From: Entrophospora sp. SA101
Lineage: Eukaryota > Glomeromycota > Glomeromycetes > Entrophosporales > Entrophosporaceae
Assembly: GCA_958430865.1 (NCBI GenBank)
Contig: CAUDNR010004599.1
Location: 8,132-45,068 of the forward strand
Direction: 5' to 3'
DNA length: 36,937 nt
The notes under the pieces were generated by a model. That model was not told where the DNA came from. It was given only the letters and a program-made list of their open reading frames with translations, and ran no database searches. How positions within the stretch are numbered: position 1 is the stretch's first letter; every line of letters begins with the position of its first letter. A program made the position numbers and the translations under genes. Shown here one piece after another: positions 22,977-36,937 of this stretch.

Positions 22977-24452
22977 TTATTCTGGTATAGTTAATTCAAT
23001 TTGTTTAGAATCTGGCATACTTAATTCAATTTGTTTAGATTCTATAATTTAAATATATAATTTAAAATATCATTAATAGATCATTAAGGTTAAATATATA
23101 ACAATAAATTGGATAATCACCATTATTGTTACTAATAATTGTAACTTTGTTGGAATTTACAAGTTGAGGAAGATTTGTAAAATTTAATAATCTACTTGTA
23201 TAAATAGCACTTGGATGAACAATTGCTGAAATTGTTGAAGGGTTAAATGGGTTTTTATCTGCATCCTTAAATATTTTTCTCAATTTTTCTAATTCATCAA
23301 GCTGTTCTTCAGAATAACTAGAAATATTAGATTCAATTGCATCCTTCCAAAAAGTAATAATTTTTAAAATTTCATCTGCTGTTGGTCTTTTTTTAGGATC
23401 CAGCATCCATGCATTTGCATGTTAACTTAATATAACATTCTGGAGTATTATCTGAAAAACTAGGCCTTAATCCACCACAGATCTTGAAAGCAAGATTTAT
23501 ATCATGTGGTTGATCTTTGAATGGCTGTTGATGTGTTGATGTTTCTGACATTAAAATCCCAAAGCTATAGATGTCAGATTTTTGTGTATAAGGTTTCTTA
23601 TTTAATACCTCTGGTGCAATATATGGCAGTACTCCAAATATACCACTTTTACTTGATATTTTTTGATTAGTTGGGCTTGATAACCCTAAATCTGAATCAT
23701 TGCCTGGTGTAAATAATCAAAATATAAAATATTACCACTGTGAAGATCACCATGTGTAAGTTTTTCTTGATGAAATGTGTTTAAACTTGAAACAATATCA
23801 TAAAGTCTTTTAATTTTATCATTCCATCTTGTATAATTTGATTTTAAATATTTCTTAAAGTCTCCTCCAGCTGCATATCTCATTATGAGAACATATTCTT
23901 TTGTATTTGGATCTTGTGAAATGCCATAAATATTAACAATACCTTTATGATAAGGTCCTATAAATTTAATGTGATTTCGAAGCTTTATGAAAATTAATAA
24001 AATTTAATATACTGTTTAAAAATCATTAATTGTCAATTAATTATATCAAATTATTTACCTCCTTTAAAAACTCATCAGGAGTATTTTGTGAATTTTTAAC
24101 CTTTTTTAATGCTACAAGACTATTGATACAATAATATCTTTCATTATCATAAACATACCTAGGACCATTTGACCAATAACACTTATGCACAGTTGCAAAA
24201 CCACCTTTACCTAATTCTTCTTTAACTGTGAGTTGGTCATAAGGAACCCATTCAAGGTAATAATAACTATCAAATCCTTTTGCTTTAAGCTGTGTATATC
24301 TGATTAGATTATCTAATTTTTCATTACCACTGCTAGTCCAACTTTGAGCTAACAATTTGGGATCACATGATTGACACCACTGGTAATTAGTATTATATCT
24401 TCCACAAGCAGAACAGATTCCATGTTCTTTTTTTCTTTCTTTCTTTAAACCC
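22977..24452 (-). pseudogene. Protein kinase gene copy A, frameshifted
   Basis: The exon 24452-24059 encodes a short Cys-rich segment (GICSACGRYN, then WCQSCDP), a SWTSSGNEKLDNLI linker, the Gly-rich loop LGKGGFATV and the VALKKVKNS lysine strand. A 76-nt intron (23983-24058) leads to the next exon: GPYHKGIVNIYGIS, the hinge VLIMRYAAGGDF and the catalytic loop HGDLHSGNIL. One base is then missing just before the DFG equivalent (expected ISDLGL, found a stop at 23686). The frame resumes as SDLGLSSPTNQK, IAPEVLNKKPYTQKSD and IYSFGILM. A second shift lies near 23420 before LDPKKRPTADEIL. A last exon is likely at 23041-22977 (SKQIEL twice, TIPE, TAA). Catalytic-core features are those of serine/threonine or TKL-type kinases expanded in Rhizophagus. 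The two shifts argue against an active product. The 5' end would be reached through the array at 24702-25534. Confidence 0.8.
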
Positions 24453-24701
24453 CTTAGTATTATCTTATTATTTCAAATAATTAATTTTTTGTAAAAAAAT
24501 TCAATTAAAATAGAATTATTTTTCAACATAATAAAAATAGATATTCATTTAAAAGTTATTAAAGAATTAAATTTATAAATTATTTTACCTTCAATTGTTA
24601 GTCATTATAAAACACAAAATAATTTTATTTAATTAGACAAAATTATGATTAAAATTACTTTGTGCTGAGAAAGTTATTTTATAATATAATATAATATTTA
24701 C

Positions 24702-25534
24702 CAGCTGGTTATTATGAAGAAACAAAAAACATTTAATTAGATGTTATAAAAACTTATTTTGTGTTGTAAAAGTTACTTACATGCTGGTTATTACAAGAAA
24801 ATAAATTTATTAATTAGTTTGTGTTTTAATAAAAATTATAAAATTTAATTATATAAATACTTACTTCCTATTGATTGTTATAAAGATTTATTAATTAATT
24901 AGATGATATTTTAATAAATTATTTTGTTTAAATTCATAAAATACTACTTACCAACTGGTTATTATAAATAAAGAAAAATAAACTTATTAATCTGATATAA
25001 AAATTGTAAAAGTTAATTTATAATACAATACAATACCTACCAGCTGGTTATTGTAAATAAGAAATAAATTTATTTAGTTGTCCTTTTAATGAAAATTATT
25101 TTGTGTTGTTAAATTAATTTATAATATAATACTTACAATCTATAAATAAAAATAAAAATATTTAATTAGATGATGTTTTAATAAAGTTTATTTTGTGTTG
25201 TAAAAGTTAATTTATAATATAATACTTACCAACTGGTTATTATAAAGAAATAAAAAATAAAATTATTTAATTAGATGATGTTGAAGATAAAGTTTATTTT
25301 GTGTTGTAAAAGTTAATTTATAATATAATACTTACCAGCTGGTTATTATAAAAAAATAAAAAATAAAATTATTTAATTAGATGATGTTGAAGATAAAGTT
25401 TATTTTGTGTTGTAAAGGTTAATTTATAATACTTAATGCTTACTCCCTGGTTATTACAAAGAAATAAAAATAAAAATATTTAATTAGATGATGTTGAAGA
25501 TAAAGTTTTTCTGTGTTGTAAAAAGTTAATTTAC
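24702..25534 (-). repeat. Tandem array of intron-like units with 3-nt nodes, copy A
   Basis: Read on the minus strand, nine units of 79-108 bp each end in an acceptor (mostly AATAACCAG, also TTTATAG and CAATAG), then exactly three bases, then a donor (GTAAGT, GTAAAT, GTAGGT or GTAAGC). Triplets, from the kinase side outward, are CTG at 24702-24704, CAT at 24781-24783, GAA at 24865-24867, TTG at 24952-24954, CTG at 25041-25043, ATT at 25137-25139, TTG at 25230-25232, CTG at 25336-25338 and GGA at 25444-25446. A further donor (AAAG|GTAAAT) at 25535-25534 has no acceptor three bases before it and may end a normal first exon. Unit bodies share GTAAGTATTATATTATAAAT and an AAAATAAACTTTAT core. Unit length equals ordinary intron length in this window. 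Confidence 0.8.
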
Positions 25535-25877
25535 CTTTATAGAATTTAGCTAAATATTATAAGCAAAATATTAAATTATGATGTAAAAATCCTTTTACTA
25601 TTACTATCACTACATATTTTTAAAATAGTTATTTTCTGTACAAGAAAAAAATACCTTCATTCATTTTTTTTATTGGGAGTATAGTGCAGTTTTGAAAAAA
25701 AATTTCCAATCAAAAATTCGATTTGTCACGTGACATTTAACGATCATTCCATAAACGGGAAAATCGGCAATAATAAAAATAATAAATTTTAAAACAATTC
25801 ACAATTGATAATTTAATTCTAATTTTTAACAATTCACTAGATTTTTTCAACAAATTTATTTTCTTTAAAAAAAAAAA
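25535..25877. promoter_or_regulatory. Probable bidirectional promoter region with a GTCACGTGAC palindrome
   Basis: This region lies between the outermost donor of the kinase A array (minus strand) and the GRF gene (plus strand). It contains a perfect 10-bp palindrome GTCACGTGAC at 25725-25734, which includes the CACGTG core bound by bHLH regulators in fungi (Cbf1/Pho4 type; family knowledge). A minus-strand ATGAAG followed by GTATTT near 25655 is a possible first exon end for kinase A. All functional statements are inference. Confidence 0.4.
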
Positions 25878-34472: not shown

Positions 34473-35943
34473 TTATTCTGGTATAGTTAATTCAATTTGT
34501 TTAGAATCTGGCATACTTAATTCAATTTGTTTAGATTCTATAATTTAAATATATAATTTAAAATATCATTAATAGATCATTAAGGTTAAATATATAACAA
34601 TAAATTGGATAATCACCATTATTGTTACTAATAATTGTAACTTTGTTGGAATTTACAAGTTGAGGAAGATTTGTAAAATTTAATAATCTACTTGTATAAA
34701 TAGCACTTGGATGAACAATTGCTGAAATTGTTGAAGGGTTAAATGGGTTTTTATCTGCATCCTTAAATATTTTTCTCAATTTTTCTAATTCATCAAGCTG
34801 TTCTTCAGAATAACTAGAAATATTAGATTCAATTGCATCCTTCCAAAAAGTAATAATTTTTAAAATTTCATCTGCTGTTGGTCTTTTTTTAGGATCCAGC
34901 ATCCATGCATTTGCATGTTAACTTAATATAACATTCTGGAGTATTATCTGAAAAACTAGGCCTTAATCCACCACAGATCTTGAAAGCAAGATTTATATCA
35001 TGTGGTTGATCTTTGAATGGCTGTTGATGTGTTGATGTTTCTGACATTAAAATCCCAAAGCTATAGATGTCAGATTTTTGTGTATAAGGTTTCTTATTTA
35101 ATACCTCTGGTGCAATATATGGCAGTACTCCAAATATACCACTTTTACTTGATATTTTTTGATTAGTTGGGCTTGATAACCCTAAATCTGAATCATTGCC
35201 TGGTGTAAATAATCAAAATATAAAATATTACCACTGTGAAGATCACCATGTGTAAGTTTTTCTTGATGAAATGTGTTTAAACTTGAGATGATGTTATAAA
35301 GTCTTTTGATTTTATCATTCCATCCTGTAATAGATGATTTTAAATATTTTCTAAAATCTCCTTCATCTGCATATCTCATTATGAGAGCATATTCTTTTGT
35401 ATTTGGATCTTGTGAAATGCCATAAATATTAACAATACCCTTGTGATAAGGTCCTATAAACTTAATGTGATTTTGAAGCTTTATGAAAATTAATAAAATT
35501 TAATTTATGATTTAAAATCATTAATTGTTAATTAATTATATCAAATTATTTACCTCTTTCAAAAACTCTTCAGAAATGTTTTGTGAGTTTTTAACCTTTT
35601 TTAATGCTACATGACCACCTTCACAATAATATCTTTTATTTTCATAAACATATCTAGGACCATTTAACCAGTAACACTTATACACAGTTGCAAAACCACC
35701 TTCACCTATTCCTTCTTCAACTATGAGTTTGTTATAAGGAATCCATTCAAGATAATGATAACTATCAAATCCTTTGGCTTCAAGCTGTGTATTTCTAATT
35801 ATTTCATCCAATTTTTCATTACCACTGCTAGTCCAACTTCGAGCTAACAATTTGGGATCACATGATTGACACCACTGGTAATTAGTATTATATCTTGCAC
35901 AAACAGAACAGATTCCATATTTTTTCTTTCTTTCTTTAAAACC
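34473..35943 (-). pseudogene. Protein kinase gene copy B, frameshifted
   Basis: Same architecture as copy A. Exon 35943-35554 is exactly 130 codons in phase 0 and begins GFKERKKKYGIC, then CSVCARYN, WCQSCDP, the Gly-rich loop IGEGGFATVYKC and VALKKVKNS. A 75-nt intron (35479-35553) leads to GIVNIYGIS, MRYADEGDF and HGDLHSGNIL. The one-base loss before the DLG motif, the second shift before LDPKKRP and the probable last exon (34537-34473) are identical to copy A because they lie in the identical tract. Upstream of 35287 the two kinases differ at many residues (for example AAGGDFKK versus ADEGDFRK). That region of copy B has no internal lesion, so the 5' part may once have been under constraint separately. 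The intron-like array lies immediately 5'. Confidence 0.8.
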
Positions 35944-36113
35944 CTTAGTATTATCTTATAAAATAGAATTATTTTTCAGCATAATAAAAAATAGACATTC
36001 ATTCCAAGTGAAAATTGTAAAAAAGATAAAATTATAAATTATTTGATTAGACAAGGTTTTGATAATTTATTTTGTGTTGTAAAAGTTATTTTATAATATA
36101 ACATAATATTTAC

Positions 36114-36937
36114 CAGCTAGTTATTATGAAGAAATAAAATTTATTTAATAGTTGATGTTATAAATTTTATTTTATATTATAGAAGTTACTTACATGCTGG
36201 AAAATAAGTTTATTAATTAGTTGATGTTTTAATAAAATTTATTTTGTGTTGTAAAAGTTAATTTCATAATATGATACTTACTCCCTGGTTATTATAAAGA
36301 TTTATTAATTATATGATGTTTTAATAAAATTTATTTTGTGTAATTTATAATATACTAACCAGCTGGTTATTATAAATAAAGAAAAATTAACTTATTGATT
36401 AAATATAAAAATTATAAAAATTATAAAAGTTGATTTATAATACTTACTAGCTGGTTATTATAAAGAAATAAAAAATAAAATTATTTAATGATAAAGTTTA
36501 TTTTGTGTTGTAAAAGTTAATTTATAATATAATACTTACTAACTGGTTATTATAAAGAAATAAAAAATAAAATTATTTAATTAGATGATCTTTTGATAAA
36601 GTTTATTTTGTTTTGTAAAGTTAATTTATAATATAATACTTACAATCTATAAATAAAAAATAAAATTATTAATTAGATGATGTTGAAGATAAAGTTTATT
36701 TTGTGTTGTAAAAGTTAATTTATAATATAATACTTACCCCCTGGTTATTATAAAGAAATAAAAAATAAAATTATTTAATTAAATGATGTTTACTTTGTAT
36801 TGTAAAAGTCAATTTATAATATAGTACTTACTAGCTGGTTATTATAAAGAAATAAAATAATAAAATTATTTAATTAGATGATGTTTTAATAAAGTTTATT
36901 TTGTGTTGTAAAAGTTAATTTATAATATAATACTTAC
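36114..36937 (-). repeat. Tandem array of intron-like units with 3-nt nodes, copy B
   Basis: Nine complete nodes were read on the minus strand: CTG at 36114-36116, CAT at 36194-36196, GGA at 36282-36284, CTG at 36360-36362 (donor GTTAGT), CTA at 36448-36450, TTA at 36540-36542, ATT at 36644-36646 (acceptor TTTATAG), GGG at 36738-36740 and CTA at 36832-36834. A tenth donor (GTAAGT) sits at the window edge. Spacing is 78-104 bp. Because the kinase exon here starts in phase 0, each triplet would add one sense codon. The series differs from copy A, yet the AG-NNN-GT rule holds at every node. Confidence 0.8.

Follow-up and report, generated by a model that had tools for sequence, protein, structure and literature searches.

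Arrays of tandem introns spaced three nucleotides apart in kinase genes of Entrophospora sp. SA101: a predicted series of one-codon exons

The genome of the glomeromycete fungus Entrophospora sp. SA101 contains arrays of short putative introns that follow one another head to tail with just three nucleotides between them. We describe one such array, and the family to which it belongs, in a stretch of 36,937 nucleotides (the window; assembly GCA_958430865.1, contig CAUDNR010004599.1, positions 8,132 to 45,068 of the forward strand). On the minus strand of the window, at 24702-25446, nine nodes of the form AG-N3-GT (a splice acceptor, three bases and a splice donor) with introns of 76-105 nucleotides between them precede a kinase gene. 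All nine had been named in an earlier sequence-only reading of this DNA and all are present; the array extent given there, 24702..25534, encloses the nodes, but it closes with the last base of the first array intron (25534), exon 2 occupying 25535-25549. The explanation we favour, with a probability of roughly 0.8, is that tandem homologous introns of ~92 nucleotides lie three bases apart and that each triplet would be spliced and translated as a one-codon exon, the triplets together supplying an N-terminal piece of the kinase. At the level of the letters themselves, the kinase-type arrays show the fixed spacing, the near-invariant AG and GTAAGT, the variability of the triplets, the agreement of phase and the lack of stop codons split across introns.

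The array family and its fixed spacing

A search of the fungus's own genome (~101 Mb) with the array piece returned 265 matches among the best candidates, and those listed were mostly clustered. Twenty stretches picked by such matches, and six more picked by exon 1 of the gene model described below, were sampled; they are cited by L numbers where they need to be told apart. A profile of the intron body, from which the junctions were excluded, identified arrays in all 20 stretches in addition to two in the window, giving 22 arrays of 7 to 47 triplets; L054 holds six triplets with both sites and one node with the acceptor lost. Between neighbouring profile matches lie 315 junctions, 269 of them distinct. 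When the gap was left free between 0 and 12 nucleotides and acceptor and donor were scored separately, 3 nucleotides were chosen at 313 of 318 junctions, and the remaining five also contain AG-N3-GT. The 313 three-nucleotide nodes carry AG in 312 instances and a donor beginning with GT in 303, GC in nine and AT in one. Because training of the scoring matrices used junctions that have AG at the three-nucleotide place, and junctions without a fair donor went unscored, lost sites are undercounted and nodes with both sites gone were never scored. Pattern searches of the whole genome are free of this training bias: ATAACCAG followed by a free gap of 0-12 nucleotides and a donor gave a gap of 3 in 77 of 77 rows, the same design with a variant donor gave 3 in 31 of 31, and a pattern that leaves out the acceptor gave AG-N3-GT, judged by eye, in all 96 rows (93 distinct sites), compared to two rows for the reversed-pattern control. 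The sequence-only reading had suggested looking genome-wide for other AG-N3-GT arrays and had held that free drift of their spacing would speak against real splice junctions; the search uncovered a second array in the window (array B) and further arrays elsewhere in the genome, and in those examined the spacing does not drift.

The columns around the junctions are sharply divided. In a table built from 256 of the 269 distinct junctions (46 repeated contexts having been dropped from the 315, and then 13 weak ones) the acceptor AG carries 1.93 and 1.86 bits and the donor GTAAGT 1.57-1.96 bits per column, compared to 0.07, 0.56 and 0.18 bits for the three triplet positions; the lowest column outside the triplet, at the edge of the table, has 0.54 bits. 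Array introns range from 62 to 117 nucleotides (gaps >137 nucleotides excluded), with ~92 being typical, and they have spliceosomal ends: GT..AG in 253 of 263 distinct introns, with a GC start in eight. A CTAAT motif, probably branch-point-like, is present in 192 of the 263 and mostly lies 30-44 nucleotides before the intron end. The dinucleotide AG is rare in the last 20 nucleotides before acceptors (4 AG against 26 GA), and of the 263 introns, 258 would bring in a stop if retained. Among 322 pairs of neighbouring triplets, 38 are identical. Short repeats, named by eye, have apparently been inserted in array introns or the first intron of L051 and L055.

Among the residues predicted for the variable piece, Ser, Thr, Gly, Val, Ala, Tyr, Asn, Asp and Trp predominate, and G or T fills the third codon position in 205 of 239 triplets. 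NNK codons, which leave one stop codon, are used in laboratory peptide libraries, and the arrays are akin to such libraries in their bias at the third codon position. In 14 reciprocal best pairs of the 95-99.9% class the triplets differ by 0.26 changes per site and their flanks by 0.027; several of the pairs sit at different places in their arrays and for this reason we do not claim positive selection.

Predicted gene model, reading phase and codons split by introns

The predicted gene begins with two small exons. Exon 1 occurs as ATGAATGAAG, ATGAACGAAG or ATGAACAAAG, and exon 1 together with its donor (ATGAAYGAAGGTATTTTTT) has 47 occurrences in the genome, with none for the reversed-pattern control. 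Exon 2 is 15 nucleotides long by the design of its search pattern, and its length is therefore not an independent finding; among its copies there are synonymous (GCT/GCA, TTC/TTT) and other differences. Both exons were matched in 12 of the 22 arrays, and their joint length of 25 nucleotides sets phase 1. Exon 1 also occurs without an array (L053), or with exon 2 and a single node (L052). At the other end of the array a first kinase exon, reading AATAAG/AT AAC ACT AAG GGG TTT AAA or similar (the slash marks the splice junction), was located in 15 of the 22 arrays, with a phase-1 start each time; its acceptor is AATAG/AT or AC in L043 and L044. Reading this exon from CTAAG/GGG, that is in phase 0, clashed with exons 1 and 2, and the upstream AATAAG/AT acceptor resolves the clash in the 15 arrays. 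As for the remaining arrays, L035 and L041 enter other kinase genes, L045 and L047 read N, L046 meets a contig end and no kinase was seen in L040 and L049.

The predicted reading frame runs open from the ATG through the final triplet in all 12 copies in which both first exons were matched, as it does in L051 and L054. It continues open into the kinase exon in eight of nine full copies where that exon was found, the exception being copy A of the window. The second kinase exon was found at 13 loci; it is open through the three motifs checked in L032, L036, L038, L043, L044, L048, L050 and L054 and through two in L037, reads N in L031, and is interrupted in L033, L039 and L042. With both first exons, an open array and open kinase motifs, L032, L043, L044, L048 and L054 appear intact, their exon joins being predicted. 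The predicted product consists of MNEAKFYK, a variable piece, DNTKGFKERK, a Cys-rich part and a kinase domain; the last was recognised as PF07714 at 128.6 bits (cut-off 23.1), and also as PF00069, in a protein assembled from several copies.

If the triplets are joined in phase 1, each codon takes its first base from the end of one triplet and its other two from the start of the next, on the far side of an intron. After removal of the near-copies L034, L039, L044 and L050, and then of L049, the arrays contain no stop among 222 such codons; the mean is 8.89 when triplet order is shuffled within arrays, with no count this low in 5000 shuffles. Seven of these joins spanned gaps >137 nucleotides, where a node was missed or lost, and their omission changes nothing (0/218 against 8.40). 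Across all 22 arrays there are four stops in 322 codons compared to 15.3 in shuffles, and all four lie in L049. In a collapsed set of 196 pairs, obtained by merging those that share their triplets and have introns of at least 90% identity and by leaving out gaps >137 nucleotides, a triplet ending in T is never followed by AA, AG or GA (0/52), compared to 33/144 for other endings (Fisher P=1.2e-5), whereas A, C and G as control bases show no depletion, G being in excess. Among unique ordered triplet pairs the avoidance holds for immediate neighbours (0/36 vs 28/101, P=6e-5; with L049 included, 2/48 vs 31/116, P=4e-4) and is not significant two (3/32, P=0.14) or three triplets apart (5/34, P=0.40). 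This limitation to immediate neighbours is as expected if each triplet joins the next one in the messenger RNA. Repetition of the DNA alone is insufficient to account for stop avoidance across introns; it would follow if every triplet were spliced in order and translated. The earlier proposal of introns parted by single-codon exons thus gains support from the match of phase with the exons on both sides as well as from the stop avoidance, and the remark that none of the triplets is a stop in the phase of the kinase is correct in phase 1 as set by exons 1 and 2, a phase that the sequence-only reading had not derived.

The mechanism we envisage is one of intron definition. Each short intron would be removed by itself, in which case a 3-nucleotide exon is no obstacle, and every triplet would normally be included, in order. 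The arrays may grow and shrink by whole units through unequal exchange; each added unit would contribute one codon and never shift the frame, which would explain how arrays can lengthen. The likely protein would read M-N-E-A-K-F-Y-K, 6 to 28 variable residues, D-N-T-K-x-F-K, and then the Cys-rich and kinase parts. Our favoured guess, which fits these features, is that the N-terminal piece serves as a variable-length linker or recognition segment. A much broader proposal, that the array is an exon module extended residue by residue, moving between kinase genes in phase 1 and supplying hypervariable segments, in effect a peptide-diversity generator for a signalling or recognition family of a root symbiont, strikes us as possible but doubtful.

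Counter-evidence, alternatives and known systems

A number of observations weigh against one-codon exons. Acceptors have been lost at one node in L054 (CCAAGGAGT) and one in L033, and the kinship of the paralogous arrays means that the counts are not fully independent. There is no depletion of AG 20-40 nucleotides before acceptors (35 AG against 38 GA). L049 has phase-1 stops in four of 46 codons and was omitted from the main coding test after these had been seen; with it, the deduplicated set has four in 268 against 14.75. Phase 2 is also somewhat low in stops (24/222, below the shuffles at 32.0, P=0.017), and order effects other than coding may thus add a little. Phase 0 has two stops in 239 triplets (column permutation mean 6.8, P=0.02), so that the stop count alone leaves phase 0 open, and it is the flanking exons and the neighbour test that favour phase 1; as a coding phase, phase 0 conflicts with the flanking exons. 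The junction AATTGAAG/GTAAAA, near the 3' end of the array, has no clear exon. Both kinases of the window are frameshifted, A in its first kinase exon and A and B at shared places in the second. The exon 2 pattern found no match in L041 and L045. Lastly, the predicted N-terminus was present in no protein among the best 120 of 1150 and the best 120 of 205 matches; the closest proteins, among the matches listed, begin inside kinase exons.

The alternatives differ chiefly in what becomes of the triplets. They may be genuine one-codon exons of which different subsets are skipped in different transcripts, yielding many protein forms per gene; all array exons being 3 nucleotides long, any subset keeps the frame, and alternative splicing of this sort is described for the micro-exon genes of schistosomes (PMC4350168). 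Common skipping should extend stop avoidance to triplets two and three apart, where it was not significant, albeit in a comparison of modest power, and we regard this variant as unlikely. It is very unlikely that the whole array is removed as one long intron, joining exon 2 to the kinase exon, with the inner sites as decoys or recursive steps and the triplets untranslated. The flanking exons do join in frame with or without the triplets, and AATTGAAG/GTAAAA has the AG/GT form of a recursive site; yet untranslated triplets should not avoid split stops, as immediate neighbours here do while more distant ones show no significant avoidance, and recursive (ratchet) sites would be AG/GT with no fixed gap, a form that among the junctions considered only AAG/GTAAAA takes, the nodes all holding their three bases. 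We give marginally less credence still to serial insertion of introner-like mobile elements whose target site duplication would include the triplet, a scheme to which the high copy number (the 265 matches) and the occurrence of arrays in different gene contexts (L035, L041) would be congenial, but which should repeat the triplet at both ends of a unit, whereas so few neighbours are identical. Least probable of all is a plain minisatellite whose units, clearly tandem duplicates with widely shared intron sequences, spread by unequal exchange and merely inherited an unused AG-N3-GT, for the triplet columns vary while AG and GTAAGT stay, intron length varies around a constant gap and a coding constraint spans the introns; we rejected it on the column contrast and the split-codon test, in agreement with the doubts of the sequence-only reading.

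The favoured explanation, an array of one-codon exons, has partial precedents. Schistosome micro-exon genes, whose coding region consists largely of very small symmetrical exons, appear to be the nearest known kind: there, too, units can be gained, lost or skipped without a frame shift (PMC4350168), and the predicted gene model likewise contains a run of very small symmetrical coding exons. In contrast, the exons of Entrophospora would be single codons, the introns are tandem copies, the host is a fungus and the genes are kinases. A single 3-nucleotide micro-exon is described in Drosophila homothorax (PMC7392893), and micro-exons of 3, 18 and 22 bp in human RPS24 (PMC12686416); in both a 3-nucleotide exon is recognised and spliced in, albeit one such exon rather than 6 to 47 in a row. 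The constitutive single-nucleotide exon of Arabidopsis APC11 (PMC4674806) similarly indicates that exon size itself is no bar to splicing, although it is one exon and not an array. Introners (PMC9860276) and fungal introner-like elements (PMC4457414) resemble the arrays in providing many similar introns per genome; unlike introners, the introns here lie head to tail, one codon apart, and the terms 'Glomero', 'Rhizophagus' and 'tandem' are absent from the main text of PMC9860276. A long run of similar introns is also found in SNHG14, where 29 and 48 tandem introns yield SNORD116 and SNORD115 (PMC11608373), whereas here the exons look coding and positions 24300-25800 of the window gave no Rfam match at E up to 1, leaving the array in that interval without the mark of a small nucleolar RNA host.

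No comparable array is described among the open-licence literature listed, which is weak evidence of novelty. If cDNA confirmed it, this run of one-codon exons would exceed in length anything in that literature. It would present the spliceosome with a 3-nucleotide exon flanked by an intron on each side dozens of times per transcript, a direct test of such exons and of whether short introns suffice to define splicing without exons. It would furthermore constitute a gene family in which each DNA unit changes the length of the protein by one residue with no risk to the frame, and would hint at a reason for which gene predictors could overlook where such kinases really begin.

The window and other gene contexts

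The features of the window are collected in Table 1. The motif AGNNNGTAAGT occurs 14 times, compared to 0.79 expected from dinucleotide shuffles, and the triplets of the two arrays are drawn from CTG, TTG, CTA, TTA, GGA, GGG, GAA, ATT and CAT; across the family, CAT is the penultimate triplet in 11 of 22 arrays. Array B, which precedes a paralogous kinase and had not been named in the sequence-only reading, runs into the end of the contig (45068 bases), and its 5' part lies beyond. Variants of AATTGAAG/GTAAAA near the 3' end of arrays include an extra AAG in L043 and L044 and, in L048, loss of the AG with GTAAAA kept. Treating AATTGAAG as an exon of length 2 modulo 3, considered as a solution to the phase puzzle, was dropped, as the acceptor is not AG in most copies.

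Table 1. Predicted parts of the two arrays and adjoining kinase exons, in window coordinates
Feature	Position	Strand	Details
Predicted exon 1	25655..25664	-	ATGAATGAAG (M N E + 1 base); donor GTATTT
Predicted exon 2, 15 nt	25535..25549	-	CTAAATTCTATAAAG (A K F Y K); flanked by TTTAG and GTAAAT
Candidate micro-exon 1	25444..25446	-	GGA
Candidate micro-exon 2	25336..25338	-	CTG
Candidate micro-exon 3	25230..25232	-	TTG
Candidate micro-exon 4	25137..25139	-	ATT; acceptor TTATAG
Candidate micro-exon 5	25041..25043	-	CTG; donor GTAGGT
Candidate micro-exon 6	24952..24954	-	TTG
Candidate micro-exon 7	24865..24867	-	GAA; acceptor CAATAG
Candidate micro-exon 8	24781..24783	-	CAT
Candidate micro-exon 9	24702..24704	-	CTG; donor GTAAAT
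AATTGAAG/GTAAAA	24583..24596	-	acceptor abutting donor; candidate zero-length exon or unused remnant
Copy A, first kinase exon	24059..24463	-	acceptor AATAAG; phase 1 start, D N T K G F K E R K; frameshifted
Array B (paralogous), nine nodes	36114..36834	-	CTA GGG ATT TTA CTA CTG GGA CAT CTG
Copy B, first kinase exon	35554..35954	-	open in phase 1 (DNTKGFKERKKKYGICSVCARYNTNYQWCQSCDP...)

Elsewhere in the genome the arrays stand in several settings. In L035 (G000:C940:9000-17586) an array of eight triplets lies within a different gene, between preceding Laminin_G_3 exons (PF13385, 42 bits) and following kinase exons that score 23.2 (under the cut-off of 31.7) and 54 bits; judged by eye, phase 1 is set at the end of the preceding exon and kept in the one that follows. 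The Laminin_G_3 stretch of L035 occurs twice within these letters. The array of L041 leads to another kinase, open in phase 1 by eye. L056 holds a transposase-like insertion (named by eye), one donor changed to ATAAGT and a phase-1 stop, as expected of a dead copy. The array of L049 (G000:C262:1-9500), with 47 units and no adjacent kinase seen, is rich in AGA and TGT triplets; an exon-like piece upstream of it ends in phase 0, in which none of the 47 triplets is a stop (permutation mean 3.0, P=0.02). These letters are suggestive of the use of another phase in L049, no homology supporting the upstream exon.

The plasmid collection gave no match to the window. A cytochrome P450 assembled from the window has its nearest relatives among proteins of Entrophospora sp. 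SA101 (best 92% over 91% of the query), and Glomus cerebriforme follows as the next species at 57%. Tandem-repeat rows at 22981-23074 and 34477-34570, where the two kinase genes have their 3' ends, show the same consensus and the same scores, in line with a segmental duplication of ~11.5 kilobases.
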